Positions 19,067-40,750 of a stretch of DNA of 64,000 nt are shown here, piece by piece. The position numbers were made by a program, and so were the translations under genes. Positions within the stretch are counted from its first letter, which is position 1. Each line of letters opens with the position of its first letter. The notes beneath the pieces were generated by a model, which was not told where the DNA came from, ran no database searches, and saw nothing but the letters and a program-made list of their open reading frames with translations. The stretch lies in contig NZ_LT605203.1 in the NCBI RefSeq assembly GCF_900089495.1, positions 4,495,944 through 4,559,943 of the forward strand, written 5' to 3'. The stretch comes from Thiomonas sp. X19 (GTDB taxonomy: Bacteria > Pseudomonadota > Gammaproteobacteria > Burkholderiales > Burkholderiaceae_C).

Positions 19067-22000
19067 TCAATACTGCCGCCAGGCGATGGGCTTGTTCATC
19101 ACGTTGCCGCCGAATTGAATCGGGCTGATCGAGTTCGGTGTCGTCGTATTGGGTGGCGTGCTGCTGCCCGGGTAGATCACCGTTCCCGTGGGCGTGACGT
19201 AAACCGCCGGCGACAGCGGGATGCCCGCACCCAGCGCGATGACTCCATTCAACACGGCGTTGTTCTTGTAGGTGATGGTGATTTTCGGCTTGTTGCCCGT
19301 CAGCAGGTCGAACAAGTCGTAGTAGCCGGTTCCTACGCCGCAGGTGCTGCCCGGAGGTGGCACATACACCGGCACCACCAGCACACCATTCACCAGGACG
19401 GGGGCAGCGGAAATCTGCCCGCCGCTTTGCAAGGGCATGACCGTGGTCGAGGAAACGGCCGTCAACGTTCCACTGCTGTCGGGCTGGTAGCCGCTCGTGC
19501 CGCTGCTGGCCCAGAGAATGTTGGAGCTGCCGCCCGACAGGGCAAACGTGGTGATTTCACTGGTCGTTGCCGCCCAGATATAGGGCAAGCCGCTGATCTC
19601 GGTGTAACCCACATAGTTGATGGCTGCCGCCGGGCTGGTCGTTGCCACCTGTGTGGCATTCCCCGCGTCGCTCGGCGCCGAGCCGGAGATGTTCAGGCTC
19701 CACACCCCGCCATTGTTGTCGCCGAGCCAGAGCGTGCCGGTCGTCGGCACATAGGTCAAAGAACTGTTGACATAGGTGCCTGAAGGCAGTGTGGTGAGCG
19801 AAGACGAAAGCGCCGTGCCGGTGGCCGGTTGTCCGGTCGCCACGTTCACCTCGTACAGCGTGCTCTTGGTCACCGCGGAACTGCCGCTGCCCGTGGTTGT
19901 GTTGACCACGAACACCGCATATTGCATGCCGCCCACGGTGACGATGATGGGCGCCTGTTCCTGCGGCGAACTCCCTCCGGCCACGTTGATGCCCCAAGTC
20001 TGGGCCGAGGGGGTTGGCGCTGTGGTGGTCGTGGAACTGCCGTTGCTGCTCAGCTTCAGTGCATAGTGATACGCCCCGCCGCCAGCCGCGCCCACCACGT
20101 AGCTGGCCCAGTCGCTCGCCTGAGGGCTGGTCGAGGTGTCTGCCGCATCGGTGGTGGTGAAGGCGCCATCGAAATACTGCCCGGTCTGGAAGCTGGTGTA
20201 GTACTGCAAGTTGGCAAGGAAAGACCGCGGCATCCAGCCCCAGACCAGGTTGCCCGTGGTCGCATCCACCGCGTACAGGAAGCCGTCATTGCTGGTGAAC
20301 AACACCAGTTTTTCACGGCCGCTGTTGTTGCGCGCGAAGGATACATAACCGCCGATGCCCAGCAAATTCGCATTGCCCGGGGGGCCGAGATATTGCACAT
20401 GGTCGTTCGGGCTCAAGCTGCCCAGCATCCAGTTCAACTGCCGCCCGGCGAGGTAGGAACAACCCGCAACGCCGCTTGGAAAGCCCAGACCGCTGATGTT
20501 GGGTGTGCTGTCCCCCGCCGTGTTGAACGACGGGTCGAAGGTGTAGGCCAGAATCGTGGAGATATTGGGCACGCAGGTCGTTGCCGAGAGGGCGAACGCG
20601 CTTGGGCTGTAATTCGGGCTGCTGCTGTTGTTGCCGATGTTGTTCAGCGTGTCGATCGTTCCCGAACCAAGCCCGGAGCCGGAAGCAGTGCCCGTGGTGC
20701 TGAACAGTGCGGTTTGCCGCGTAGCGGCTGACATGAGCGAGGGTGCGCCCGCATCCCACACCGCTGGCCCGCTGGCCGTACCCACTGGCGCGCTGGCGCT
20801 CGAACTCGGAAGCGCGACCGTGCCGTAAGCCTGGATGTGGCCGCCGATGGCACCGGGATTGTTGTCGCTGGTGGCGGTGTAAATCAGCGAGCCGCCGGTG
20901 ATGCTGGTGGGCGCCACGGGGGCTGACACCGCGATGCTGCTGAAAATTTGTCCGGCAATGCTGCTCAGCGCGGAATTGAAAGCCGACACATTGTTTGCCG
21001 GATATTCCTGCCCCGTGCCCCCTGCAATAGCCATGGCATTGAGTGCGGCATAGGCAGCCGGGTTGGCGGTGGAGTCAACGCCAGCGCCGAGGCCGATGAC
21101 GTAGGTTTTAATCGGATGCGAGCCACTGTTCAGATTTTGGATGGCGGTGATAGTGTCGATTAGAGCTTGGTCATTGGTGTTGGACGCATCAAGCGTGCCG
21201 ACGGGGCCTCCAGTATTGCCAGAGTCGTTATTGATGCCATAGGCTGCATTACCTGCGACTCCGTAAAAGGCAGCATTAACACCATAACCATTTGGCGTTG
21301 CAGCGCCGGCAGCACTGCCAAGCGGAGGCCATAAGTTATTACTCAAATCTTGCGTTGGTAAACCATCTGTCACAAGAATGAGATACTTCCCCGCACAAGA
21401 TGAGCTTGCGCTTGTGAAACTGGTGGCTGCACCTTGCACCAGACCTGCCAGAGGTGACTGAACGGCTAATGCTTTGATTTCATGTGTATTCAGGCTGCTC
21501 GTTTCTGGAGCCAACGCTGTTTGAAATGGGGCTAATGCCGTGCTAATTTGTGAACTAGTTGGATTGGCCCCAAGTGTCGTCATTGGTACAATGTTATATC
21601 CGTCTGTCGGGATGGCAGATTGATAAAAGCCAAAGCCGCGCTGTGCATACATGACCTGAGTCGAAAACGGCACATAACCAGCATTGGTTGGACCTGTTGT
21701 TCGGGCGCTGCTATTGATTTGGCTGTCGTAGCTGACGGTAATTGTGTTGGGTGTATGATATTGAGATAGTGTGAATGTGGAGTATGGGCTCGCCGGCGCG
21801 TTCCCGCTTGCATTATAGACAATGGATAGTCCGCTCAACTGGCCGCTATTATCATACAGAACATCATTGATGTCGGCATCATCGGATGATGCGCTCACTG
21901 ACATGTATTTATAGGTGGAGATGCTATTGTACGGGTTATATAAACCCGAGCTGTCAACTTGAGAGCATTGATAGTCAAGGGTCGTCGTTGGGTTGCTGTT

Positions 22001-22639
22001 ATTATAGCCATAGCAGGGATTGATAACTGTAGAAGAAGGTGATGTTGTGCTGGCAGGCCCGGTATTCGTGAATGTGAATCCTCCGGGATTCGACATGTAA
22101 TAAACCCACGTGTTGTACAGGGTGCTTGGAAGCTGGTTTTCACCAACATCGTAATCTTCTAAGGCAAAATCCATGCTCGGCAAATATTGATTTAATACCG
22201 AGGTGATCCCAGCCTTAGCAACATTCAGCCGACTCGCGCTGTTATCGACCAAATCAGATCCGCCGTTGGGCCCCGTGAATGGTCGGGTGTAGGGGGCGGT
22301 TGGCGCGCTTGTGGCGGTCACTGGGGGGGTAAAACCAAGCGGAACTGAGTAATTTACAGGGGAACTTGAGTTTTGGAGGCCGCTTAACCCCAGCCCAGCC
22401 CCGACAAGTGAACCTGATCCCGTCATGATGGCTCCACTCAAGTCGCCGTCCATCGACTGCGAATTGCCGATGGCGATGACGATTTGCGGCCGCGGCAGGC
22501 TGGTGCTCGTTGTGCTGCCTGTTCCTGTTCCACCCCTTTTTTTCGCAAAACTCAATGGCGCTAGTGTGAAGCAAGCTCCAAGTAGAAATGCAACAGCCGC
22601 AAGCAGCAGCATGATTCTTGAGGCGTGGACAGTTTTCAT
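19067..22639 (-). CDS. pilY1: Type IV pilus tip adhesin/assembly protein PilY1
   Basis: 1190 aa from the ATG at 22639, which overlaps the pilX stop (ATGA). A hydrophobic export signal (residues 8-22) precedes a von Willebrand A-like part starting PQIVIAIGNSQSMDGD (51-66). The usual MIDAS Asp of D-x-S-x-S is Gly here. The second half is the PilC/PilY1 beta-propeller (KLVLFTSNDGFLYAVDATTGNL, LWLGDNNGGVWSL). In this family the protein sits at the pilus tip with the minor pilins, primes pilus assembly and mediates adhesion and surface sensing. Bases about 21,100-22,400, encoding the N-terminal part, are visibly more AT-rich than the rest of the gene, which suggests a separate history for the tip domain. 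Confidence 0.88.
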   Translation of the reverse strand: MKTVHASRIMLLLAAVAFLLGACFTLAPLSFAKKRGGTGTGSTTSTSLPRPQIVIAIGNSQSMDGDLSGAIMTGSGSLVGAGLGLSGLQNSSSPVNYSVPLGFTPPVTATSAPTAPYTRPFTGPNGGSDLVDNSASRLNVAKAGITSVLNQYLPSMDFALEDYDVGENQLPSTLYNTWVYYMSNPGGFTFTNTGPASTTSPSSTVINPCYGYNNSNPTTTLDYQCSQVDSSGLYNPYNSISTYKYMSVSASSDDADINDVLYDNSGQLSGLSIVYNASGNAPASPYSTFTLSQYHTPNTITVSYDSQINSSARTTGPTNAGYVPFSTQVMYAQRGFGFYQSAIPTDGYNIVPMTTLGANPTSSQISTALAPFQTALAPETSSLNTHEIKALAVQSPLAGLVQGAATSFTSASSSCAGKYLILVTDGLPTQDLSNNLWPPLGSAAGAATPNGYGVNAAFYGVAGNAAYGINNDSGNTGGPVGTLDASNTNDQALIDTITAIQNLNSGSHPIKTYVIGLGAGVDSTANPAAYAALNAMAIAGGTGQEYPANNVSAFNSALSSIAGQIFSSIAVSAPVAPTSITGGSLIYTATSDNNPGAIGGHIQAYGTVALPSSSASAPVGTASGPAVWDAGAPSLMSAATRQTALFSTTGTASGSGLGSGTIDTLNNIGNNSSSPNYSPSAFALSATTCVPNISTILAYTFDPSFNTAGDSTPNISGLGFPSGVAGCSYLAGRQLNWMLGSLSPNDHVQYLGPPGNANLLGIGGYVSFARNNSGREKLVLFTSNDGFLYAVDATTGNLVWGWMPRSFLANLQYYTSFQTGQYFDGAFTTTDAADTSTSPQASDWASYVVGAAGGGAYHYALKLSSNGSSTTTTAPTPSAQTWGINVAGGSSPQEQAPIIVTVGGMQYAVFVVNTTTGSGSSAVTKSTLYEVNVATGQPATGTALSSSLTTLPSGTYVNSSLTYVPTTGTLWLGDNNGGVWSLNISGSAPSDAGNATQVATTSPAAAINYVGYTEISGLPYIWAATTSEITTFALSGGSSNILWASSGTSGYQPDSSGTLTAVSSTTVMPLQSGGQISAAPVLVNGVLVVPVYVPPPGSTCGVGTGYYDLFDLLTGNKPKITITYKNNAVLNGVIALGAGIPLSPAVYVTPTGTVIYPGSSTPPNTTTPNSISPIQFGGNVMNKPIAWRQY

Positions 22640-23247
22640 GATGTTGTCGGGGTGCAGAGTTTGAACACGGTTTCGGTGGTGGCGGCGGTCGTGGCGTTCG
22701 CCTCTTGCGTGTGCAGGAAGATGTCGTAATACGTCGCGGTGAACCCCGTGTTGCCACAGCTGTAGGCATCGGTCGGCTGGTTGGTCGGGACCACGGTGGC
22801 GAGGGCGGTGTAGCCGCCCGGCAGGGCGGGCGGCGCGGGGTTGATGACCGAAGCGACGTTGGCCACCGTGTCGCAGGTGCCGGATGCCTGGCAGGTTTGC
22901 CAATACGTCGCGGGGGCGCCCGTTCCAGTGCCCGGCGCGGGCCAGACGCTGCCGTTGTTCGGCGGGATGTAGAACCAGGCTTTGCCGGTGGCGGCAATTT
23001 CCAGCGGCACGTCACCGGCGTTATTGGCGGTCTGAATGATGGCCTGCTGCACCTGCCGCAGCGCCAGGTCGCTGGCCTGCACGTCTTTCTGGCGTTGCAT
23101 GGTGTTGCCGGTCATGGCGGTTTGCAGCAGCGTGCCGCGCATGGTGAACAGCACGCCGAATAGCAGCACCAGCAGGGTGATGAGGGTGAGCAGCAGCACG
23201 AAGCCCTGCTGGGGCTTGCGCTGCGCGCGGTGGTTCAGTGCGGCCAT
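22636..23247 (-). CDS. pilX: Minor pilin PilX
   Basis: 203 aa. The N-terminus QQGFVLLLTLITLLVLLFGV is a class III signal (cleavage after Gly) plus a helix. It lacks Glu5, as is usual for PilX/GspK-type minor pilins. The C-terminal domain has paired Cys (WQTCQASGTC; YSCGNTG; FKLC). It overlaps pilW by 13 bases and pilY1 by four, so the genes are translationally coupled. It should form part of the tip complex with PilV, PilW, FimT and PilY1. Confidence 0.85.
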   Translation of the reverse strand: MAALNHRAQRKPQQGFVLLLTLITLLVLLFGVLFTMRGTLLQTAMTGNTMQRQKDVQASDLALRQVQQAIIQTANNAGDVPLEIAATGKAWFYIPPNNGSVWPAPGTGTGAPATYWQTCQASGTCDTVANVASVINPAPPALPGGYTALATVVPTNQPTDAYSCGNTGFTATYYDIFLHTQEANATTAATTETVFKLCTPTTS

Positions 23248-24515
23248 ATCTGGTTCCGAATGGCAACTTCGGATTCGAGGACGGAGAAGCGGTTGTTGGC
23301 ATACGCAGCAGGCACGCTGTAGTTGGTGAAGCTGTCCGGGCCGGCAGTCGGGCTGGCCAGGGTGATGGTGCCGGGCGCGTTGTACTTCGGGTCGGTCTGC
23401 AGGGTTTTGGTGACGATGGCGAACAGCACGCTGCGCACGTCAGCGGTGTAGTTGCCCTTCACCACGTCGGGCCAGGTGAGGTAGTTGGTCACGCCGCCGG
23501 AGTTGGTTTCATCCACGCCGAACAGGGCTTGCAGGCTGACCACGCCGGCGGCCACGGGGTTGATGGAGGTGAGCGTGTCGTTCTGCGCGTTGATCACGGC
23601 GCGCATCAGCATGGGGTAACTGCCGGTTGCCGTGCCCGCAGTGCCATAGGTGCCGACGTAATACACCACGGTTTGCTCGACGGTGGCGGCCGCAGGGCCG
23701 AGGTCGGTGAGCCGCGAGCCGATCAGGTTGCTGTTGACCAGTCCCGAGGCTGGCCAGACGCCGGCCGACTGCATCTGTGTTTGAAAGCCCGTGTAGCCAC
23801 TGCCAGGAAAGAGCTGGGTGCTTTTGCTGTCGATTGTCGGCGGGTTGCTGGGGTTGACATGGGCAATGGGTACCCGAAAACACACGAGTTTGCCGTTCAA
23901 AGGCATGCGCAGCAGTGCGCCGTCGCCGGCGTTGATGCCGGTGACGGTCTGTAGCGGCAAAACAGTCGAGCTGATGGCGCCATTCGCGCCGGGCGCGGTG
24001 GTCGTCGACGCTTGCTGAACCACATAGGTGCTCGGGTTGCCGTTGCTCGGCAACTGCAGGGCGCTGGTGGTGCCGGTGAAAAACAGCATGTCGGTGAACT
24101 GCGCGCTGCTGCCGTAGCTGTTTGGATCGGGCGTCGTGCTGGGGTAGGTGGAACTGCCCGCGGCCGTGCTGGTGGGCAACGGCAGCGGTTGCGACGCCGC
24201 GGACACGGGGTATTGGAAGAACGCCGGGTTGGTCAGACTGCTGTCGTAGGCCAGGGTCAGGCTGCAGCGCGACTGCACGCCACCGAGCATGAAGCCGGCA
24301 TTGCTCAGGTCCTGGGTGATGAGGTCGAGCGCGGCGCGGGACTGGTTGTCGCGCTGGCTGACATCGGACATCTGCACGTTTTCCTTGGTCAGCGCGATTT
24401 GCACCAGCAGCACCGAGAGCGAGAAGATGATGGCCGCGACCAGCGCCACCATCAGCTCGACGAGGGTCAGGCCGCGCTGGCGGGGCAGGGTGAGGCGTGC
24501 AGGCGTGGCGTGCAT
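23235..24515 (-). CDS. pilW: Minor pilin PilW
   Basis: 426 aa from the ATG at 24515, one base after the pilV stop. Longer frames upstream only read through pilV. The prepilin motif is QRGLTLVELMVALVAA, with Glu5 present. The body continues with SRAALDLITQDLSNAGFML, a typical PilW segment, and a long beta-rich C-terminal part. It is a structural minor pilin needed to start pilus assembly. Confidence 0.87.
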   Translation of the reverse strand: MHATPARLTLPRQRGLTLVELMVALVAAIIFSLSVLLVQIALTKENVQMSDVSQRDNQSRAALDLITQDLSNAGFMLGGVQSRCSLTLAYDSSLTNPAFFQYPVSAASQPLPLPTSTAAGSSTYPSTTPDPNSYGSSAQFTDMLFFTGTTSALQLPSNGNPSTYVVQQASTTTAPGANGAISSTVLPLQTVTGINAGDGALLRMPLNGKLVCFRVPIAHVNPSNPPTIDSKSTQLFPGSGYTGFQTQMQSAGVWPASGLVNSNLIGSRLTDLGPAAATVEQTVVYYVGTYGTAGTATGSYPMLMRAVINAQNDTLTSINPVAAGVVSLQALFGVDETNSGGVTNYLTWPDVVKGNYTADVRSVLFAIVTKTLQTDPKYNAPGTITLASPTAGPDSFTNYSVPAAYANNRFSVLESEVAIRNQIWPH

Positions 24516-24516
24516 G

Positions 24517-25041
24517 TCAGAACCCCACCTGGTAGTTGTAGGTCTGCGACCGGGTGGTCGTGGAATTGGGCTGCCACTGGATGTTGAGCGTGATGCCGCA
24601 AAGCGTGGTGGTCGGCGTTGCAGCGCTGCAGGCGTTGCCGTCGGCGCCGTTGTTGGCGGTGATGGTGACGCTGGCGTTGGGGAGCATGGTTTGCCCATTG
24701 CTGAAAATATTCGTCAACAGCGGTTGAAGCGAAGTTGGGGCAGCACTTTGGCTCGAAACCTGATACTGCACCTTTGTTCCGCTTGCCGGCGAGGCGCCGA
24801 ACAGTGTGTTGACCAAGCCCGGATTGGCCTGCAGCAGTGCCCAGAACTGGTTGCCGAATGCGGCGGTGTCGGTGGCGGCTTCGTTGGCCGTGACGGCCGG
24901 CACCGCCATGGTGTAGATGGACGCGATGCTGAGCATGCCGAGGCTGAAAATGACGATGGCCACCAACACGCTGATGAGTGACAGCCCGGCCTGAAGGCCG
25001 GCTCGCGCGCGGATTGACGAAGGCGAGAAGGGCAGGCTCAT
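24517..25041 (-). CDS. pilV: Minor pilin PilV (lacking Glu5)
   Basis: 174 aa. A prepilin-type N-terminus is present (QAGLSLISVLVAIVIFSLGM), with cleavage expected after Gly. The residue at mature position 5 is Ser, where PilV normally has Glu. Position in the cluster between pilW and fimT, and the following YTMAVPAVTANEAATDTAAF region, identify it. It overlaps fimT by four bases. Confidence 0.8.
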   Translation of the reverse strand: MSLPFSPSSIRARAGLQAGLSLISVLVAIVIFSLGMLSIASIYTMAVPAVTANEAATDTAAFGNQFWALLQANPGLVNTLFGASPASGTKVQYQVSSQSAAPTSLQPLLTNIFSNGQTMLPNASVTITANNGADGNACSAATPTTTLCGITLNIQWQPNSTTTRSQTYNYQVGF

Positions 25042-25544
25042 GACGCGGTGTTGCTGTTGAGGATGACGCTGCCCGAACTGAGCACCTGCATCGTCCAGGT
25101 TTGCTGACCATTGGCGGTGGTCACGGTGATGGTGGGCGAGATTGGAGGGCCGCCGACGCCGTCCGTGATGAAGCCTTGAGAATTAAAGTCAAGGTTCCCG
25201 GTGGTTGGCGCGTTCGTCGTAATGCTGCAGGTGACGCCGGGGTATTCCGTCGCTGCATTGGTCATGGAATGTTCCGCCACGGTGGGACCGCCATTGACCG
25301 TCGCTACCCATTGGCAGTTGCCGTTGGACAAGGCGATTTGCACAGGCTGCTGCGACGTCACCGCCAGGTTGCGCGCCCAGGCCACGTCCTGTGGAAACTT
25401 GTTGATCAAAACCGAGGTCTTGCCGGACTGCACCATGGTCACCAGGTTCGGCACCACAAGCATGCCGAGCATGGCCGCCACCGCGAGGGTGACCAGCAAC
25501 TCGATGAGGGTGAAGCCGCCTGGGCGGCGGGCCGCGTGGCGCAT
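25038..25544 (-). CDS. fimT: Minor pilin FimT/FimU (GspH family)
   Basis: 168 aa. The prepilin motif GGFTLIELLVTLAVAAML has Glu5, followed by the GspH/FimT region (FPQDVAWARNLAVTSQQPV, GNCQW). The start lies one base past the pilE stop, and the end overlaps pilV (ATGA). FimT of some competent bacteria binds DNA, but that activity cannot be inferred here. Confidence 0.83.
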   Translation of the reverse strand: MRHAARRPGGFTLIELLVTLAVAAMLGMLVVPNLVTMVQSGKTSVLINKFPQDVAWARNLAVTSQQPVQIALSNGNCQWVATVNGGPTVAEHSMTNAATEYPGVTCSITTNAPTTGNLDFNSQGFITDGVGGPPISPTITVTTANGQQTWTMQVLSSGSVILNSNTAS

Positions 25545-25545
25545 T

Positions 25546-26010
25546 TCAGCAGTCCCCGGACTGGTCGCGCACCCAGCAGGTGGAACTGCTGCCGACGTTA
25601 TGGCTGGACCAGCCGCCGGTCGTCGGTACGCTGAGCGTTTGCTTGGTGCCGTTCTGGTTGATGGAGTAAACCATCCCGGTCAGCGTGGGCGTGCTGCCCG
25701 TGGCCGTGATGGTGAACTGCGTGGCAGTTGGCGCCGGGTTGCAGGCAAAGGTGAAGTCCGTTGATGTCGGTGCATTGGCGCTGCCGGTGGTGCAGACATT
25801 GGGGTTGGCCGCGGTGGGAACGTAGGTGCGGTTGTCCTGGTAATACTGCTGCAACGCCACGCTGGCGCCCGACAGCCCCGAAAACGCCTCCGCCAGCTTG
25901 CTGCGCGTGACGTAACTGTTATAGGCCGGCAGGGCGATGGCCGAGAGGATGGCGACGATCGCCACGACGATCATCAACTCGATCAGGGTGAAGCCACGAG
26001 AGGTTTTCAT
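25546..26010 (-). CDS. pilE: PilE/PilA-type pilin
   Basis: 154 aa. The start is the ATG at 26010, with AAGGAG nine bases upstream. Longer upstream frames lack a leader. The leader MKTSRG is followed by FTLIELMIVVAIVAILSAIALPAYNSYVTRSKL, with the canonical Glu5 and a ragged helix. The C-terminal disulfide loop is closed by Cys in STCWVRDQSGDC. In this position, first of the fimT-pilV-pilW-pilX-pilY1 operon, it is more likely the minor pilin PilE than the major subunit, although the two look alike. Confidence 0.85.
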   Translation of the reverse strand: MKTSRGFTLIELMIVVAIVAILSAIALPAYNSYVTRSKLAEAFSGLSGASVALQQYYQDNRTYVPTAANPNVCTTGSANAPTSTDFTFACNPAPTATQFTITATGSTPTLTGMVYSINQNGTKQTLSVPTTGGWSSHNVGSSSTCWVRDQSGDC

Positions 26011-26069
26011 GCGCAAGAACTCCTTGTGCTGCATTCTGGTGGAGAGATCGATGGTGCACGACAAAATCT

Positions 26070-27228: not shown

Positions 27229-27319
27229 GGAGAGATGGATGAGCGGTTTAAGTCGCACGCCTGGAAAGCGTGTAAGGGTTAACAGCCCTTCGGGGGTTCG
27301 AATCCCCCTCTCTCCGCCA
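27229..27319 (+). tRNA. tRNA-Ser (anticodon GGA)
   Basis: The 91-base gene has a 7-bp acceptor GGAGAGA/TCTCTCC, discriminator G and an encoded CCA (27317-27319). The anticodon stem is CACGC/GCGTG with loop CTGGAAA (anticodon GGA). A long class II variable arm and the T-loop GTTCGAATC are present. Its 3' end is the probable attachment site of the integrase that follows 160 bases downstream. Confidence 0.95.
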
Positions 27320-27417: not shown

Positions 27418-27482
27418 CGATACCACGCCAGCCAGCCGCCAATCGTGGTATTTTTCATGGTATCCAGAAGGGCGATACCATG
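27418..27482. repeat. Inverted GATACCA/TGGTATC repeats before the integrase
   Basis: GCGATACCACG (27418-27428), CGTGGTAT (27444-27451), CATGGTATCC (27457-27466) and GCGATACCATG (27472-27482) are alternating direct and inverted copies. The last overlaps the integrase start codon. They may be integrase/excisionase arm sites or an autoregulatory operator. Confidence 0.5.
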
Positions 27483-28658
27483 AGTCTCACCGTAAAGGCT
27501 GTCGACGCAGCCAAGCCGCAGGAGCGGCCCTACAAACTCACCGACGGCGGCGGCCTGTACCTCTTTGTGGCGCCCACCGGGTTGAAAAGCTGGCGTGCCA
27601 ACTACGAGCTGAACGGCAAACAGCGCACGCGGACCTACGGCCGCTACCCGGCCATGACTTTGGCGCAGGCCCGAGAAGCGCATACGCAGGCCAAAAGCAC
27701 ACCGGCCGAGGCGGCGACAGTCACGCCGATCGCGAAGGTCGCACCGACGTTCAAGGCCATCACGGAGCAGTGGCTGAAGATCAAACTTCCCTCCCTGTCC
27801 AACGGAAAGCACCAGGGGCAGGTAGCCGGGACGCTGGAGCGCTTCGCGTACCCAGCGATTGGTAAGCTGCCGATCGATCAGATCCCACGCACAAAACTCG
27901 TGGAAGTCGTGCAGGCCGTGCAGAAGGGCGGCCGTGTGGAAACTGCTCATCGGGTGGCTGGGCGCATCGCGGCGGTATTCGACTACGCGCAGGACGTGGG
28001 CTACATCGAGAGCCACGGTGCCGCTGGTCTGGTGCGAGTGCTGCAGCCGCGCAAGGTGAAAAAACCGATGGCCAGCATCCCGCCCGGCGAAGCTGGCGCT
28101 TTGCTCGCGGCGATCGACGGCTATGAGGAGCCGGTCACCCGCCTGGGGCTGCAGTTACTGGCCTTGACTTTCGTGCGCGTCGGCGAGATGCGCGGTATGC
28201 GGTGGTCAGAGTTGCGCGAGGACGGCACGGTCTGGGTAGTTCCCGCAGACCGCATGAAGGCAGGATTGCCGCACGTAGTACCGTTGTCCCAACAGGCGCG
28301 GGCGGTGCTTGAACAACTTCGGGTGCTCACAGGTGACCGCAATCTGGTGCTGGATTCACCGCTGCGCCCGGGGCATGCGCTGTCGGAGAACACCTTCCTG
28401 TTCGCGCTTTACCGACTGGGCTATCGCGGTCGGATGACGGCGCATGGATTTCGGGCTCTGGCGTCCACCGTGCTCAATGAGCAATCGGGCTTTGCGCACG
28501 ATGTCATCGAGCGCCAGCTCGCGCACCGCGAGACGGATACGGTTCGCGCGGCGTACAACCGGGCGCAATATCTGGACCAGCGCCGGGGGTTGATGCAGTG
28601 GTGGGCGGACTGGTTGGATCGACAGCGCGAATCAGATCGGCCACCCGTCAGCGCGTGA
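27480..28658 (+). CDS. int: P4-type tyrosine-recombinase integrase
   Basis: 392 aa. The N-terminal DUF4102 arm-binding domain (AKPQERPYKLTDGGGLYLFV, RTYGRYPAMTLAQAREAH), the SAM-like core-binding domain and the C-terminal catalytic domain are all present. The catalytic Arg lies in FVRVGEMRGMRW, the HxxR box is HGFRALAST, then HRETDTVRAAYNRAQYL with the nucleophile Tyr. It follows tRNA-Ser in the same orientation, the classic layout of an island integrated into the 3' end of a tRNA gene. The ATG overlaps a repeat (GCGATACCATG), so it may be self-regulated. The last 180 bases are duplicated at 30817. Confidence 0.93.
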   Translation: MSLTVKAVDAAKPQERPYKLTDGGGLYLFVAPTGLKSWRANYELNGKQRTRTYGRYPAMTLAQAREAHTQAKSTPAEAATVTPIAKVAPTFKAITEQWLKIKLPSLSNGKHQGQVAGTLERFAYPAIGKLPIDQIPRTKLVEVVQAVQKGGRVETAHRVAGRIAAVFDYAQDVGYIESHGAAGLVRVLQPRKVKKPMASIPPGEAGALLAAIDGYEEPVTRLGLQLLALTFVRVGEMRGMRWSELREDGTVWVVPADRMKAGLPHVVPLSQQARAVLEQLRVLTGDRNLVLDSPLRPGHALSENTFLFALYRLGYRGRMTAHGFRALASTVLNEQSGFAHDVIERQLAHRETDTVRAAYNRAQYLDQRRGLMQWWADWLDRQRESDRPPVSA

Positions 28659-29004: not shown

Positions 29005-29445
29005 ATGGCACAACGCCCCGGAAATAACCCCAAACGCCGTATCGTCCGGCCAGAGCGCCTGACTGAGGAGGAGAAGGCGCAATTGATGCGGGACGTGCGC
29101 TATGTCGGTAGCGGTCACCATAAACGAAATCCAGCTGATTACGAGCTGCCGCGAGCAAACCCCCGGCCCACAAAGTCGTTGTGTGATCTGGAGCGCACCA
29201 TTAATCTGAGTGAGGCACAGCACCTTGTGGCGACCGGCATCCAATGCGGTTTGTTCAGTGAGCCGCGGGAAGACGGCTTCCCGAAGTTCATTTGGAGCGT
29301 ATCGGAACGTGGCGAGGTGTTTGAAGCCAAAACAGATACTCATGGCACCGGTGAATATCATGGGTACCCGCTGGAAGATGAGGATGTCATGCACGAGTAT
29401 GTGAAGTCCGTCTGGATAGAAAGATGCCAGAGCGCTGGTCAATAA
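29005..29445 (+). CDS. Unassigned 146-aa protein of a two-gene island cassette
   Basis: I do not recognise a named family. The N-terminal 35 residues are basic (RPGNNPKRRIVRPERLTEEEK). They are followed by SGHHKRNPADYELP (36-49), a KSLCD segment (57-61), FPKFIWSVSERGEVFEAKT (92-110) and GEYHGYPLEDED (116-127). The paired His motifs (GHHK, YHGYP) and the compact alpha/beta pattern could form an active or metal site, as in small nucleases, but this is speculation. There is no signal peptide or TM segment, so it is cytoplasmic. It overlaps the next gene by 22 bases, so the two are translationally coupled. Base composition is lower in GC than the backbone. The Shine-Dalgarno is weak. Confidence 0.7.
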   Translation: MAQRPGNNPKRRIVRPERLTEEEKAQLMRDVRYVGSGHHKRNPADYELPRANPRPTKSLCDLERTINLSEAQHLVATGIQCGLFSEPREDGFPKFIWSVSERGEVFEAKTDTHGTGEYHGYPLEDEDVMHEYVKSVWIERCQSAGQ

Positions 29446-30722
29446 CGCCCGAGTGGGCGCAGTTGGAAACTGGGTCGCCAGAAGAGCGAGCGGGTTTTGC
29501 CGCGCTCGGCATTTATGCCTATGATGCCTGCTTGACGGAGGGACATGATCGTCTTTTGCAAAGCATCCGGCGAGATCCGTATCTGTCGGCATACCATTTT
29601 GCCGAATGGCTAGCCTGGAATTGGTGGCGCCTGCGTTGGGAGCCACACAAGAAGTCACCCGAGTGGGAACTCTCACATGCCATGGCGAGCATCGGCGGGG
29701 GCTACATCTGGCCGAACATCCACATCGTTTCCGATGGGCAAGCCGTCACGCTCGTGTCTAAACCCACGCCCGAGCGTGCACGTACCCCTTACCGCTATAT
29801 CACTGACAGCGTGAGTGTCATCACCGCTGCCGACTTTGAAAGCGAAGTGGACTTGTTCATCGAAGCGGTTTTGCAACGATTGCAAACTCGCCAAGTTGCC
29901 GACAGCAATCTGAGCGATATTTGGCAGCACGTGCTCCAGGAGCGACAAGATCCAACTCTGTCCATGCACCGCAAGCTCGAAGCATTGTTGAGCGAAGACC
30001 CTGGCGAAGTGGATGAAGCTCTGCTGAATCGCTTTCTGAGCAATGGCGAGGCTACAGGCCAAACCGCTCTTGAGGAAATCGCCGCCAATCGCATACCGGG
30101 TAAAGCTGTGCCCGACGTCACGCGCCTGCTCGAGCTGGGTCATGAGCGAGGTGCCGTCACAAATCCTCAAGACTGTGTAACCCTGCGCACTCCCATTCCA
30201 GGTGACTTAGACGCCGCCTGGAAGGTTGGTACCCGTACAGCACAACTGTTGCGTGCTCAGGAAAACATGGACCAGGGTGTAGCTATCACGAACGATCGGC
30301 TTGCGGATATGTATGGTGCCCCACGAAATATTTTTAATTCCGCAGAACCACTAGAACCGCAATTCGATCTGTCCTTTGTCTTATCAGAGTCCAAGCAGCG
30401 TAATCGGGTCGTACTACGCTCCAAGTGGGATACCGGTCGTCGTTTCGAGATAGCCCGTCTGCTGGGTGATACCTTGATCCGTGTAACTAACGATCCCATG
30501 CGCCCTGCCACGCGTTCGGATACCTACAGGCAGAAGGTGCAGCGCGCGTTCGCAGCCGAACTCCTTAGCCCCTTTCAAGCTGTGGAAACCATGCTGAATG
30601 GGGACTACTCGATGGAGAACCAGCAGGATGTCGCCCACTACTTCCAAGTCTCGAGCCTGACCATACGCACGCTACTGGTCAACCACAAGCGGATCGACCG
30701 CAGTGAGCTCGATGGGGGGTGA
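29424..30722 (+). CDS. Pseudo-ImmA/IrrE-like protein, HExxH site degenerate
   Basis: 432 aa, soluble. The N-terminal half (1-150) is of unknown fold with strongly patterned Trp/Tyr motifs: FAEWLAWNWWRLRWEP (59-74), IGGGYIWPNI (90-99) and SDGQAVTLVSKP (103-114). The C-terminal part resembles COG2856 ImmA/IrrE metallopeptidases: RRFEIARLLGDTL (339-351), RQKVQRAFAAELLSPF (369-384), then a helix-turn-helix-like VAHYFQVSSLTIRTLL. In active members the first segment reads AHELGH. Here it is ARLLGD, with both His and the Glu lost, so protease activity is unlikely. It is coupled to the preceding gene by a 22-base overlap and followed by a terminator. A sensor or antitoxin role is possible but unproven. 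Confidence 0.65.
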   Translation: MPERWSITPEWAQLETGSPEERAGFAALGIYAYDACLTEGHDRLLQSIRRDPYLSAYHFAEWLAWNWWRLRWEPHKKSPEWELSHAMASIGGGYIWPNIHIVSDGQAVTLVSKPTPERARTPYRYITDSVSVITAADFESEVDLFIEAVLQRLQTRQVADSNLSDIWQHVLQERQDPTLSMHRKLEALLSEDPGEVDEALLNRFLSNGEATGQTALEEIAANRIPGKAVPDVTRLLELGHERGAVTNPQDCVTLRTPIPGDLDAAWKVGTRTAQLLRAQENMDQGVAITNDRLADMYGAPRNIFNSAEPLEPQFDLSFVLSESKQRNRVVLRSKWDTGRRFEIARLLGDTLIRVTNDPMRPATRSDTYRQKVQRAFAAELLSPFQAVETMLNGDYSMENQQDVAHYFQVSSLTIRTLLVNHKRIDRSELDGG

Positions 30723-30764
30723 TTGGGCGCATGCTTGCATAGATTACCTGAATTGCCGTTGCCA

Positions 30765-30792
30765 AAAGCCAACCGTTCTCAGTTGGCTTTTT
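30765..30792 (+). terminator. Rho-independent terminator of the two-gene cassette
   Basis: AAAGCCAAC (30765-30773) pairs with GTTGGCTTT (30782-30790) and is followed by further T residues, 43 bases after the stop codon. Confidence 0.8.
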
Positions 30793-30816: not shown

Positions 30817-31053
30817 GGATTCCGGGATCTCGCGTCTACAGTGCTCAATGAACAATCGGGTTTTGCCCACGATGTCATCGTGCGCCAGCTTGCGCACCGG
30901 GAGACTGATGCGGTTCGCGCGGCGTACAACCGGGCGCAGTATCTCGAACAGCGCCGGGGGCTGATGCAGTGGTGGGCAGACTGGCTGGATCAACAGTGGC
31001 AAACCGATAAGCCAACCGAAAGCGTAATCACCAACCGCCAGCGTTTGTCATGA
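30817..31053 (+). pseudogene. 3' fragment of a second tyrosine integrase
   Basis: From GFRDLASTVLNEQSG onward this encodes the C-terminal 60 residues of an integrase nearly identical to the one ending at 28658, including HRETDAVRAAYNRAQYL, and then an extra tail (about 20 residues) before a stop. The remainder of the gene is absent. The DNA at 30817-30996 matches 28446-28625 with scattered substitutions. It is the relic of an older or neighbouring element, and it forms a direct repeat around the two-gene cassette. Confidence 0.85.
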
Positions 31054-35899: not shown

Positions 35900-37558
35900 C
35901 TATTTTGCAGACGCAGGCGCCTCCGCGGAACGGGTCTTGGACAAACCTTGAACCACGCCGCGCACCGCGATGAGCACAAGCAGCGTCGACGCAATGCCCA
36001 CGACCGCCAAGGCCATGCCGTCGTTGACATTCCCCTGATCGAACTGCGCATAGACATAGGTCGAGATCACCTGAGTGCCAGGCGGCTGTAACAGGATCGA
36101 TGCGGCAAGTTCGCGCATGCAGAACGCAAACAGAACCGCGCCGCCTGCGAGAACATGCGGCCATGCCAGCGGCAGATGGATCTGAGTCAGCACACGGGGT
36201 GGTCGCGCGCCGTGCACGCTCGCTGCCTGGCTCAGCCCGACCGGAACCTGCTGCAAACCACTCGCGGCATAGCGCAGTGCGTAGGGGAGCGTGAGCGCCA
36301 GATAGGCCAGGCCGATGATGGGCACATGACCATAGATCGGCAGCGGGTTGCCCGGAGCGTTCCAGAACAGAATCAGCCCAGTCGCCATCACCACGCCGGG
36401 AATCGCCTGTGGCGCATAGCCCAGCACCTCCAGGAATCTTCGGGTGCGCTCAGGAAGCCGCTGAAGGATGAACAGGCCGGTCACCGCCACCGCCATACCT
36501 GCCACGCTCGTACCGACGGACAGCCCGATGCTGGTTTGCAAGGCCGCGAGCCCGCCATCGCCCGGTGTGAGCACCTGCGCAAAATGCTTCCAGGTCCAAT
36601 TGCCTGAAGCCAAACCGTTGGTGACGGCCTTCTGCAGGGCCGTTACCCCGATGGCCGCCAGCGGCAGCCCTGTGGCGATGACGGCGAACAGCAGCGGCGG
36701 CAAGGCGCACCAGCGCCGCGTCTTCACCGCGCGCCTTTGTGCCGACGTCGCGGTCATCCGGGTCAGGGGCAAGGCGAGCAGCCAGATCATCAGGGCCAGT
36801 GTGCCAAGGAGCAAACCGATGCCCGCAGCCCGAGGCAGGTTGACCGGCCAGACGTCGAGCGCCTGCTCCACCGCCACACTGAGCACCTGAACGCCCGCCA
36901 TATCACCGAGCACCTTAGGCACGCCAAATTCTTCAGTGCTGGCGAGGAACACCAGCAAGGTCGCGGCCAACAACGCAGGAGCCACTCCTGGTCGATAGGC
37001 CATCCAGCGCGCACGCAGTGGCGATGCGCCATGAACCTGGGCCGTCTCGATGAGGCGATGATCGACGCCACGAAGCGCCGCGCTGGCCATGACATAGACC
37101 AGCGGCGTCAAGTGCAGGGCCATGACGATCGCCATGCCAGGCAGGGCGTACAGCAGCTTGGCAAGCGCCAGTCCACCATGACCGAGAACCTGGTTCCACA
37201 GGCCCACCGGCCCTGCGATCAGCGACCACGCCACCGCGGTGAGGTAGGGCGGCATGAGGAAGGAGCCGAGGAGCAGCGGCTCGAGCCCTTGTTGCCAGCG
37301 GACCGGCGTCGCCTCCACCAGTCCTGCAAGCAGGGCACCGGCGATCAGCGACAACCCCGCAGTGAGCGCGGCCAGTTTGAGGGTAGTGAGCAGGTTGGCG
37401 AAAAGGCCATGACCCAGCAGGACATGCCAGCTCTGTCCGTGCGTGAGCGGGGTTGCCGCCTCGAAGAGCAGAGCCGCAACGGGGGCTAGGATCAGCAGGG
37501 CAAACGCGCCGAGCAGCAAGATCTCCCCGGTTCGGCGAAACGATCGTCCGCTCTGCAT
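35900..37558 (-). CDS. Iron(III)-type ABC transporter permease (FbpB-like, fused double unit)
   Basis: 552 aa with about 12 TM segments and two copies of the permease cytoplasmic loop (ALRGVDHRLIETAQVHGASPLRARWM and QQVPVGLSQAASVHGARPPRVLTQIHLPLAWP). This is the fused arrangement of FbpB/ThiP-type permeases. It follows the binding-protein gene with no gap (stop and start adjacent at 37558/37559). It would form the inner-membrane channel for Fe3+ or a related ligand. Confidence 0.85.
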   Translation of the reverse strand: MQSGRSFRRTGEILLLGAFALLILAPVAALLFEAATPLTHGQSWHVLLGHGLFANLLTTLKLAALTAGLSLIAGALLAGLVEATPVRWQQGLEPLLLGSFLMPPYLTAVAWSLIAGPVGLWNQVLGHGGLALAKLLYALPGMAIVMALHLTPLVYVMASAALRGVDHRLIETAQVHGASPLRARWMAYRPGVAPALLAATLLVFLASTEEFGVPKVLGDMAGVQVLSVAVEQALDVWPVNLPRAAGIGLLLGTLALMIWLLALPLTRMTATSAQRRAVKTRRWCALPPLLFAVIATGLPLAAIGVTALQKAVTNGLASGNWTWKHFAQVLTPGDGGLAALQTSIGLSVGTSVAGMAVAVTGLFILQRLPERTRRFLEVLGYAPQAIPGVVMATGLILFWNAPGNPLPIYGHVPIIGLAYLALTLPYALRYAASGLQQVPVGLSQAASVHGARPPRVLTQIHLPLAWPHVLAGGAVLFAFCMRELAASILLQPPGTQVISTYVYAQFDQGNVNDGMALAVVGIASTLLVLIAVRGVVQGLSKTRSAEAPASAK

Positions 37559-38545
37559 TCACCGGCCAAGAATCTGATGACTGAACCGGGCCAGAACGGT
37601 CTTGCGTTGCTGCGTCAATGCGGCCCAGTCCACCGGCAGTACATGGGACAGGGCCGAATCGGGCCAGACCGTCGCGGGCGGCACACTGGAGACTGCGGGG
37701 AGCAGCAGCGCCTTCGCCACATCGGTCTGGCCCGCAGGGGACATCGCGAAGTCGACGAAGCGCTCTGCCGCCGCTGCTTGGTGGCTGCTCTTCATGACGA
37801 TTATTGGTCGGGGAATGAGGAGCACCCCGCTGCTGGGAATGATGAGATCAAGACTGTTGCCCGCGAGCTTGGCCTTGAGGGCGGTATGGCCGACCGCTGC
37901 CACCATGACGCTGCGCTCACCCATTTCCACCGGGCGCAAGGCGCTGGCATTGGGGCCGGGCCAGATGCAACCATTGGCTATGAGGGCATCGAGCCAGGCC
38001 CAGCCTTTTTGGCCCTCATGCGCGGCGTAGGCGATGACAAAGTCAGAGGCGGTGCCCGAGAGCGTGGGGTCGGGCATGGTGAGCTGGCCCTTCCATTTCG
38101 CGTTGGTGAGATCGGACCAATCCTGCGGCGCCTGTTTGTCACCGACCAGATGCGTATTGACGACCAGACCGACGACATCGGCGCCAACCGGCAGGAAGGG
38201 GCCGGGCGCATTCACCTGGTGACGCAGGGTCTTGAGGATCGCGTCGGGCCGGTACGGCAGCACCAGACCTTGATTGGCCAAGGCGAGTCCCGCCGTCCAG
38301 TCCGCGAGAATGACCACATCCGCGTGAGGCTGGGCAGCTTCAGCAGCCAATCGCGCCATGATCTTCCCGGTACTGGCGGTGTAAAGATCCACATGCTGAC
38401 CACTTTGTTTGGCATATCCAGCAGCCAGCGCTTTGGCCAGGGAGGCGGGAGCGCTGCTGTAGACCACAAGGTCGGCGGCGTTCGCCATACGGGCGCACAA
38501 CGCAGCGAGGACGAGGGAGAAGGCAAAAAGGAGTTTGTGTTTCAT
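37559..38545 (-). CDS. Periplasmic ABC solute-binding protein (FbpA/FutA-like)
   Basis: 328 aa with a signal peptide (MKHKLLFAFSLVLAALCARMANA). The mature start ADLVVYSSAPASLAKAL and the segments PHADVVILAD, DWSDLTNAKWKGQLTMPDP and GTASDFV are typical of the iron/2-aminoethylphosphonate/thiamine binding class. A Tyr pair for Fe3+ coordination was not identified, so the ligand is uncertain. The usual upstream gene, the ATPase, is separated from it by an IS630 element inserted only eight bases before this start codon, and no Shine-Dalgarno is visible. Confidence 0.83.
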   Translation of the reverse strand: MKHKLLFAFSLVLAALCARMANAADLVVYSSAPASLAKALAAGYAKQSGQHVDLYTASTGKIMARLAAEAAQPHADVVILADWTAGLALANQGLVLPYRPDAILKTLRHQVNAPGPFLPVGADVVGLVVNTHLVGDKQAPQDWSDLTNAKWKGQLTMPDPTLSGTASDFVIAYAAHEGQKGWAWLDALIANGCIWPGPNASALRPVEMGERSVMVAAVGHTALKAKLAGNSLDLIIPSSGVLLIPRPIIVMKSSHQAAAAERFVDFAMSPAGQTDVAKALLLPAVSSVPPATVWPDSALSHVLPVDWAALTQQRKTVLARFSHQILGR

Positions 38546-38552
38546 GGCTGAC

Positions 38553-39669
38553 TATAGATAAGGCCCAATAAAATATGAACTCTCAGCAAGTTTTTTGATC
38601 CATTGATGGTGGAAAAAGAAAACGCAAGAAAGCAAACACTGGAGCAACTTCACGAGCGACGCAAGCAAGTCGTGAGGTTGCACAAGCGGGGCGTCAAGAT
38701 CATGCAGATCGTGGACATGACGGGGCTGAGTTACCCGCCCGTTCGAGCGGCCATCGACTTGTACGAGGCCGGCGGCTGGAGCGCCATCCGACCGACTCGG
38801 CGGGGACGCGCCAGAGGCGACGGTCGGGTGCTCAGTCAAGCGCAAGAAGAGACGATCCAGCGCATGATCATTGACACACGTCCCGAGCAACTCAAGATGG
38901 ACTTCCATCTGTGGAGCCGCGCTGCGGTGATGCAACTCATTGAACAAGAGTTTGACATCAAACTACAGGTGCGCAGCGTTGGAAAGTACCTCACCCGCTG
39001 GGGCTTTACGCCGCAAAAGCCCATCAAGCGAGCCTATGAGCAAAGCCCTGCGGCGGTGCAGGCTTGGCTGGAGGGGGAATACCCCGCCATCGAGCAGCGC
39101 GCCAGGGCTGAGGGCGCGGAAATTCACTGGGGAGACGAAACCGCGCTGGTCAACACAGACGTGCGCGGCAGAAGCTTTGCCCCTGCGGGCAAAACCCCGG
39201 TGGCGATGGCGGTGGGCGGGACGCGCCAGAAGCTCTCGATGATCGCCACGGTCACGAACCAGGGCAAGACCCGCTGGATGATCATCGACGAGACGTTTGA
39301 CGCCGACAAGCTGATCGAGTTCTTGCAGGCGTTGATCAAGGATGCAGGCAGGAAGGTGTTCCTGATTCTGGACAACCTGAGGGTGCATCACAGCAAGTTG
39401 GTGAAGGCGTGGGTCGCCTTGCACAACGCGCAGATCGAGCTGTTTTACCTGCCCAGTTACAGCCCCCAACTCAACCCTGAGGAGAGGCTCAACGCCGATC
39501 TCAAACAGGAAATGGGCAAACGCGTGCCGGTGCGAACCAAGGCCAAATTACGCGAAGCTGCGAACGACCATATGGCGATGCTGGAACAAAACCCGCAGCG
39601 TGTGATGAGCTACTTCCAGGACCGGCGCGTTCGCTACGCAGCTTAATACTTCACAGGGCCGGAGCAATA
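38553..39669 (+). mobile_element. IS630-family insertion sequence (about 1.12 kb)
   Basis: Imperfect inverted ends share the pattern TAT-G-T--GGCCC--T-AA-TAT (left from 38553; right, complementary, to 39669) and are flanked by TA, the usual IS630 target. It carries one transposase gene. It is inserted between the ATPase and the binding-protein genes of an ABC transporter operon, in the opposite orientation. Ends are approximate to a few bases. Confidence 0.7.
38603..39646 (+). CDS. IS630-family transposase
   Basis: 347 aa. An N-terminal helix-turn-helix (QVVRLHKRGVKIMQIVDMTGLSY, RRGRARGDGR) is followed by the DDE catalytic domain with Asp in HWGDETALVNTD, Asp in FLILDNLRVHHS and Glu in YSPQLNPEERLNADLK. 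The gene is intact, so the element may be active. The ATG at 38606 is an equally good start. Confidence 0.92.
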   Translation: MMVEKENARKQTLEQLHERRKQVVRLHKRGVKIMQIVDMTGLSYPPVRAAIDLYEAGGWSAIRPTRRGRARGDGRVLSQAQEETIQRMIIDTRPEQLKMDFHLWSRAAVMQLIEQEFDIKLQVRSVGKYLTRWGFTPQKPIKRAYEQSPAAVQAWLEGEYPAIEQRARAEGAEIHWGDETALVNTDVRGRSFAPAGKTPVAMAVGGTRQKLSMIATVTNQGKTRWMIIDETFDADKLIEFLQALIKDAGRKVFLILDNLRVHHSKLVKAWVALHNAQIELFYLPSYSPQLNPEERLNADLKQEMGKRVPVRTKAKLREAANDHMAMLEQNPQRVMSYFQDRRVRYAA

Positions 39670-39688: not shown

Positions 39689-40750
39689 TCAGGCGGGATG
39701 GTTGTCGGCGGGGAGGAGCCAGCAGTGCTCCGAAACGAGGTCGATGGACACCGCATCCTGGGACAGATCGTGCGGGCTGGTGCCCTGGATGCGATCGCCG
39801 TTGGGGTGTTCGACTTCAACGTGGAAGAGCCCAGCTTCAAAGCGGCGCTTGTGCACCCGCCAGGCGCCCGCTTGGGCGTGGATGCGAACCGCCTCAGGAC
39901 GAAGCAGCAGGCGCGCAGGCCCGGTTCGGAGCGAGGAGTGGGCGGGGGCTTGCCAAGCCCTGCCGTCGAAGGTGAATCGAGCGAGATCGTTCTGCTCAAG
40001 GAAATCGACGTTGACCGGCACGCTGCGAAAACTGCCGGTCAGTCCGGCCACGACCTCACTGGACGGCTCACGGTACACCGTCGCTGGCGTGCTCCATTGC
40101 ACGATGCGTCCCTGCTCGAGAACGGCCACATGCCGTCCGAGGGCGAACGCCTCGGAGGGGTCGTGCGTGACGTGAAGCGCGGTCGTGCGGGTTTCGCCGA
40201 ACAGGGTCTGCAGATAGCTCTGCAATTCTTCTCGGGTCGGGCCGTCGACTGCAGATAGAGGTTCGTCGAGCAACACCAAGCTGGGCTTAGCCACCAGCGC
40301 GCGGCAAATGGCCACACGTTGCCTTTGGCCTCCAGATAAGGTGGCGGGCTTGCGTCGGCCATACCCGGCCAGACCCACGCGATCCAGCAATTCCTCGGCC
40401 CATCGGTGATCGGCCGGCAGTTTGCGTGCGCGCAAGGGGAACAGGATGTTGTCCATGACGTCGAGATGCGGCCAGAGATTGGCATCCTGAAACACCATGC
40501 CCAGACCGCGCTGGTGCGGCGGGCGGTCGATCGACTGGGTTGGATCGCAGACCGTTTCGCCATCGATTGCGATCTGCCCCGCATGGGGATGGACAAACCC
40601 CGCAACCGCCGCGAGCAGTGTGCTCTTGCCCGATCCGGATCGTCCCAGGAGACAGGCATAGTCGCCCGGCTCCAGATCGAACTGAATGTCACGCAGAACG
40701 GGCTGACCTCCGTAGTCCGCCTGCAGCCCACGGATGCGCAATGCTGTCAT
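39689..40750 (-). CDS. Iron-type ABC transporter ATPase (FbpC-like)
   Basis: 353 aa. Walker A GRSGSGKST lies at 36-44, the Q-loop in MVFQDANLWPHL, signature LSGGQRQR, Walker B LVLLDEPLSAVD and the switch His in LHVTHDPSEA. A C-terminal TOBE-like domain (about 240-353) follows, as in FbpC/PotA. It is the ATPase for the binding protein and permease encoded beyond the IS630 element. It lies 12 bases after the upstream porin gene, so the original operon order was porin, ATPase, binding protein, permease. Confidence 0.87.
   Translation of the reverse strand: MTALRIRGLQADYGGQPVLRDIQFDLEPGDYACLLGRSGSGKSTLLAAVAGFVHPHAGQIAIDGETVCDPTQSIDRPPHQRGLGMVFQDANLWPHLDVMDNILFPLRARKLPADHRWAEELLDRVGLAGYGRRKPATLSGGQRQRVAICRALVAKPSLVLLDEPLSAVDGPTREELQSYLQTLFGETRTTALHVTHDPSEAFALGRHVAVLEQGRIVQWSTPATVYREPSSEVVAGLTGSFRSVPVNVDFLEQNDLARFTFDGRAWQAPAHSSLRTGPARLLLRPEAVRIHAQAGAWRVHKRRFEAGLFHVEVEHPNGDRIQGTSPHDLSQDAVSIDLVSEHCWLLPADNHPA

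Follow-up and report, generated by a model that had tools for sequence, protein, structure and literature searches.

The locus and its insertion site

The stretch of DNA analysed here (the window, 64,000 nucleotides from Thiomonas sp. X19) contains two open reading frames on the plus strand: gene 1 (29005–29445, 146 aa), a candidate toxin gene, and gene 2 (29424–30722, 432 aa), which encodes a candidate antitoxin composed of a Trp-rich N-terminal part and a dead ImmA/IrrE domain. According to the ORF coordinates, the two genes overlap by 22 bases, as the initial annotation of this DNA had described. Before them lie a tRNA-Ser (GGA) gene (27229–27319) and, behind it, a tyrosine integrase gene (27480–28658, plus strand) with three Pfam integrase domains (PF22022, PF13356 and PF00589), which bears out the island integrase reported earlier. 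The GC content over the gene pair is 0.54–0.56 and that over the integrase is 0.61–0.65, so the lower GC claimed for the pair holds on this side, but on the right-hand side (0.56–0.62) the contrast is small. Behind gene 2 there is a terminator-like hairpin with a T-run (30764–30791, plus strand; RNA fold −13.4 kcal/mol, z −3.5), which agrees with the claim of an own terminator, but the hairpin is absent from the list given by a consensus terminator scan of the window. The cassette is bordered on the right by a second, truncated copy of the 3′ end of the integrase gene (30817–31024, plus strand; 86% over 208 nt to 28446–28653), which had been missed before. That is to say, the cassette is flanked by a 208-nt direct repeat, possibly a scar left by successive insertions into one and the same site. 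Elsewhere in the window, a transposase-like ORF (38603–39646), which we take to be of the IS630 type, is located between two minus-strand ORFs (35900–38545 and 39689–40750) that seem to belong to a single ABC transporter, and to the left of proC and the tRNA there are minus-strand ORFs (19067–26064) that presumably resemble a type IV pilus minor pilin and PilY1 cluster.

Within the genus, an identical (100%) gene 2 lies on a contig of Thiomonas delicata (L001), and this contig agrees with the window at 98.9% over 4797 bases. Gene 2 is present as a single copy in the genome from which the window comes, and in the genus sample it was found in 2 of 28 genomes, the window's own counted; the right flank is common to the same two genomes, and a third shows only a marginal 40-base match to it. 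tRNA-Ser was found in 22 genomes, and among the 16 of them with at least 1.2 kb of sequence behind the tRNA, an integrase of the window's type follows it in three (the window, G001 and G005). In two further genomes (L168 and L174), a related integrase (87% and 80%, respectively) comes after a 40-base match to the tRNA end. Since the integrase stands behind the tRNA in some genomes and is absent in others, the site is variable within the genus. A far attachment site, sought as a copy of the tRNA 3′ end in 28001–64000, was not found, the matches there being of 14 nt at most.

The two proteins and their families

Gene 1 had been described as having no known family, and this description stands: there was no match at E ≤ 1 in Pfam, NCBIfam or PHROGs, and the single match in PADLOC was weak (0.05). 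Fold searches (PDB and a viral library) gave no match at E ≤ 0.001, the sequence search of solved structures gave no significant match, and an HTH sought with Pfam in gene 1 and in 33 relatives was not found. The model of gene 1 consists of helices and a three-stranded sheet. Homologues of gene 1 make up 303 of 313 scored candidates, or 560 of 1548 with a wide profile, and those of gene 2 make up 1174 of 7997; both numbers are more than chance would give. Gene 1 carries the two motifs reported initially, GHHK and YHGYP, but across the wider family they are kept to a different degree. In an alignment of 46 rows (near-duplicates kept), the Tyr118-His-Gly-Tyr-Pro segment (29356–29370) holds, with Y118 in 46, H119 in 44, G120 in 45 and Y121 in 44 rows, whereas in GHHK conservation is limited to the last two residues (His39-Lys40, 29119–29124, plus strand; 44 rows, the other two being gaps). 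Further conserved residues are Cys60, Trp97 and Glu107.

Several relationships of gene 1 were considered and discarded. Weak matches between its profiles and double-stranded-RNA-binding domains (E 0.02–0.9) were set aside, the idea of a hidden paralogue of the N-terminal part of gene 2 was rejected (hhalign E 0.38), and so was that of a divergent TumE, to which no profile similarity was found (hhalign against 23 TumE-region rows, E about 0.5). At one locus, a second ORF just downstream of gene 2 (L033:11363–11995) also gives a weak match to gene 1 (profile positions 3–45, E 4e-9).

The model of gene 2 has a mean pLDDT of 76, with residues 1–49 below 50. Its residues 258–432 (30195–30719, plus strand) have the ImmA/IrrE fold with HTH-like C-terminal helices, and this domain is homologous to HELGH proteins; PF06114 (Peptidase M78) does not match the gene 2 of the window at E ≤ 1, and matches 11 of 41 relatives at E ≤ 0.1 (best 1e-6). 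Family scans of gene 2 gave only weak matches (NCBIfam 0.044, PHROGs 0.005), no PADLOC model matched at E ≤ 1, and the sequence search of solved structures gave no significant match, one to a transposase HTH (0.075) being set aside. With Pfam, neither an N-terminal HTH nor the HVO_A0114 winged helix was found in the gene 2 of the window.

In place of HELGH, residues 345–349 (30456–30470, plus strand) are Arg-Leu-Leu-Gly-Asp. The AHELGH site thus reads ARLLGD as first noted, and the substitution is kept family-wide: of the 194 rows aligned, 192 have Arg345 and 191 have Asp349; HExxH (HELGH) occurs in one row only, the outgroup L079, so the family lacks the metal site that marks M78 peptidases. 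Gln370 (30531–30533, plus strand) takes the position of the third metal ligand, which is Glu in canonical relatives: counted by hand, the sixth residue before a conserved Phe is Gln in gene 2 and Glu in L079 and L080, but in the profile alignment this column is Gln in 194 of 194 rows, the outgroup L079 included, and the column alone is therefore non-discriminating. The former active site also holds conserved arginines (R345, R374 and mostly R339 and R340). Gene 2 is not an ordinary ImmA with an intact metal site, the finding that would have spoken against the initial annotation, and its peptidase fold is predicted to have become non-catalytic, as had been proposed.

Pairing, partner swap and decay across genomes

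Searches that started from gene 2 gave 47 loci; gene 1 is matched directly upstream in 43 of them, and one of the other four (L027) keeps a gene 1 remnant. In the phylum sample, gene 1 is present in 17 of 398 genomes, and each time the same contig carries a gene 2 match beside it; in the order sample it is present in 3 of 399 genomes, each with an adjoining gene 2, together with one weak, decayed gene 1 match (G220:C14) that lacks a reported partner match to gene 2, only four gene 2 candidates having been scored in that genome. Among 72,556 plasmid records, 8 contain a match to gene 2, and 7 of these were examined; all four plasmids with a tblastn match to gene 1 have an adjoining gene 2, and a gene 1 preceding gene 2 was located by profile search in another two (L050 and L051). 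The initial annotation had asked whether homologues of the two genes co-occur and had counted never-adjacent homologues against itself; in the loci, the phylum genomes and the plasmids they lie side by side.

Apart from the pair itself, each neighbour family was seen in 5 of the 48 loci at most. Of the 77 neighbour genes on the upstream side, five match Phage_integrase, L001 from the window's own species contributing one, so the expectation that the pair generally lies next to integrases failed. The downstream neighbours (75 of 78 genes) include three RepC, two HipA and one SfiI-type restriction enzyme. Since only the two genes are constant while the neighbours change, the pair moves between contexts, and the integrase is not a constant companion. 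Phage records matched neither gene; among viral contigs the gene 1 search gave no match, and gene 2 matched one contig (L178), which carries the whole pair. There (L178:5579–9570), the complete pair is located near an ORF that we take to resemble a large serine recombinase, and transposase-like ORFs lie upstream. The two genes are thus adjacent or overlapping, kept together in changing contexts and found on mobile DNA, as is the case in type II toxin–antitoxin systems. Phage defence by the pair, which had been suggested initially, is possible, and no direct evidence for it was obtained: models of defence systems gave single matches among the neighbours (TIR, DRT, Thoeris, type II restriction-modification, SspD and others), in a scan of 77 upstream and 75 of 78 downstream neighbours (three long ones left out) that has no baseline and was not used as evidence.

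Two distant relatives of gene 2 are linked to another toxin family. With the database size set to 3 million, the gene-2-like protein of L058, a genome of the same order, matches the gene 2 profile at 1e-31 (positions 59–421), and that of L144, a Rhizobium etli plasmid, at 7e-37 (positions 130–423, the alignment beginning only at position 130). At the N-terminus of the L058 protein there is a PF25212 winged helix (8e-12), and the gene of this protein overlaps by 14 bases a gene that scores above the Pfam cut-off for PF20126 (TumE; 1e-6). On the L144 plasmid, the immediately preceding gene carries the annotation DUF6516, as TumE was formerly called, and the gene-2-like protein itself that of an ArsR-family regulator. 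In both stretches (L058:6214–8164 and L144:3600–5563), TumE is followed by a protein in which an N-terminal part (the winged helix in L058) is joined to a gene-2-like dead ImmA region, and the combination, known from these two cases, is apparently an unreported type of TumE partner. L125, L126 and L140, distant relatives found together with L058, have a gene-1-like gene upstream. In one study, TumE toxins stopped the growth of E. coli and were neutralised by their cognate partners, and one of them lowered protein synthesis (PMC10584680). The swap of partner with TumE points to gene 1 as the toxin and to gene 2 as the antitoxin.

The decay of the two genes was surveyed in 80 loci, that is, 76 after the removal of 4 duplicates. 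Both genes are intact in 53 loci, gene 1 is broken beside an intact gene 2 in 10, both are broken in 1, and 4 are cut by contig ends; in the remaining 8 (L058, L144, the outgroup L079, L077, and the decayed L044, L045, L046 and L055) gene 1 is missing and gene 2 is partial or of a different kind. An intact gene 1 beside a broken gene 2 was seen in none, a count to be read with the fact that most of the loci were found through gene 2, by which such cases could be under-seen. Gene 1 is clearly broken in 7 of the 10 (L013, L015, L027, L038, L066, L070 and L076), lacks only its end in L067 and is doubtful in L047 and L125, and the draft genomes contain sequence errors. Because gene 1 makes up about a quarter of the coding length, random lesions would be expected more often in gene 2. 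In the phylum search led by gene 1, the 17 genomes comprise 12 with an intact and 4 with a broken gene 1, gene 2 being intact throughout both groups, and one case cut by a contig end. This one-sided decay again argues for gene 1 on the toxin side. A third line is that ImmA domains are already known as a hub of antitoxins: such a hub domain is described for NetFlax D25 and RosmerTA, with the toxin first in 58% (PMC10440598), and ImmA-type proteins had earlier been linked to RelE and PIN toxins (PMC2701414).

Interpretation and relation to known systems

The near-obligate adjacency, the partner swap with TumE and the one-sided decay favour the toxin–antitoxin pair proposed at the outset, with gene 2 as the antitoxin; the locus is probably a mobile two-gene module with the toxin gene first, in which gene 1 would be the toxin and gene 2 a dead-peptidase antitoxin. 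Points against this reading are the size of gene 2, because classical antitoxins are usually smaller than its 432 aa, the lack of similarity of gene 1 to the TumE profile or to a known fold, and the small number (two) of TumE-linked relatives. As to the working of the module, we infer toxicity, neutralisation, an RNA target and a trigger as follows. Gene 1 would be a small toxin whose family has no name; the polar residues conserved in it (H39, K40, E107, H119 and Y121) suggest an enzyme, which would most likely act on RNA. In gene 2 the metal site seems to have been replaced long ago by the conserved Arg, Asp and Gln, so that cutting of a repressor, as carried out by ImmA, IrrE and CapP, would not be expected; gene 2 would probably neutralise gene 1 through binding, and its HTH-like C-terminal helices may regulate or repress the operon. 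The toxin might be freed by the binding of a ligand to gene 2, by the loss of gene 2 or competition for it, or alternatively by the action of an invader on gene 2. More tentatively, and with perhaps a limited chance of being right, the ImmA/IrrE domain could be a pseudo-peptidase antitoxin hub that works without proteolysis, in which the active site now binds an anion or a ligand, unrelated toxins (the gene 1 family and TumE) are neutralised, and release is triggered by the ligand.

The roles might be reversed, with gene 2 as an effector or sensor whose dead ImmA domain holds a nucleic acid or nucleotide in a basic cavity and responds to a phage or to damage, and with gene 1 as its regulator or antitoxin. 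Gene 2 is indeed larger and more widespread than gene 1, and the arginines at its former active site fit this picture; moreover, related proteins are described in which ssDNA is bound by way of a basic cavity close to the HTH (PprI; PMC10904395) or CoA is bound in the matching cavity (PrpR; PMC6765138). This reversal is nevertheless unlikely, since an intact gene 2 beside the seven clearly broken copies of gene 1 would be unexpected if gene 1 restrained gene 2, and in the TumE-linked relatives the gene-2-like protein stands in the place of the antitoxin. A non-toxic regulatory pair, in which gene 2 controls transcription on the island in the manner of PrpR or ImmR and gene 1 is a co-regulator or accessory, would suit the HTH-like helices of gene 2, the winged helix fused to its relative in L058, the ArsR annotation in L144 and the integrase near the pair in the window. 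The changing neighbours offer no constant regulated target, however, gene 1 matches no HTH family, and the two relatives of gene 2 are paired with a proven toxin family, all of which makes this explanation quite improbable. Some sources name the relatives "ImmA/IrrE family metallo-endopeptidase", but HExxH is missing from every aligned row save the outgroup and Gln stands where canonical relatives carry the Glu ligand, so an active peptidase with other ligands is very hard to credit.

If the toxin–antitoxin reading is true, a toxin family would be added for which no searched library has a model, and an ImmA/IrrE antitoxin could work without proteolysis. In the open-access literature, no paper on the gene pair or on a dead-ImmA antitoxin was found among the matches listed. 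In the pairs that cleave repressors, CapP-CapH and ImmA-ImmR (IrrE-DdrO), the partner is an HTH repressor; gene 1 is no HTH repressor by Pfam, and gene 2, having no metal site, would not be expected to cleave. PrpR-type regulators share a non-catalytic IrrE-like fold, but PrpR itself acts as a transcription factor and carries both CoA and an iron–sulfur cluster, and no partner toxin is described in the part of the literature covered. TumE-TumA (DUF6516) is similar in that the two distant relatives of gene 2 lie directly downstream of TumE, in the place of gene 2. Gene 1 is not recognisably TumE by Pfam (PF20126) or profile comparison, and therefore the pair is not TumE-TumA; the HVO_A0114 winged helix of the TumE-linked relative is likewise absent from the gene 2 of the window. 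The swap of the TumE partner offers a ready comparison for a non-cutting antitoxin role of the ImmA fold.

RosmerTA (RmrT-RmrA) and NetFlax D25, like the pair described here, are two-gene units with an ImmA-fold protein on the antitoxin side; their ImmA antitoxins go with diverse toxins, and the toxin-first order is common (58% for D25; PMC10440598). In the gene 2 family, in contrast, HExxH of the protease site is lost throughout, the small N-terminal HTH that is frequent, though not universal, in RosmerTA/D25 according to the same source is not found by Pfam in the gene 2 of the window, and the toxin partner differs, gene 1 belonging to another, unnamed family. Since the predicted working resembles RosmerTA/D25 and the protease feature is absent, the gene pair is set apart as a variant rather than a member, and it would separate two roles that are blurred in RosmerTA-like systems, namely the cutting of a repressor and the holding of a toxin.
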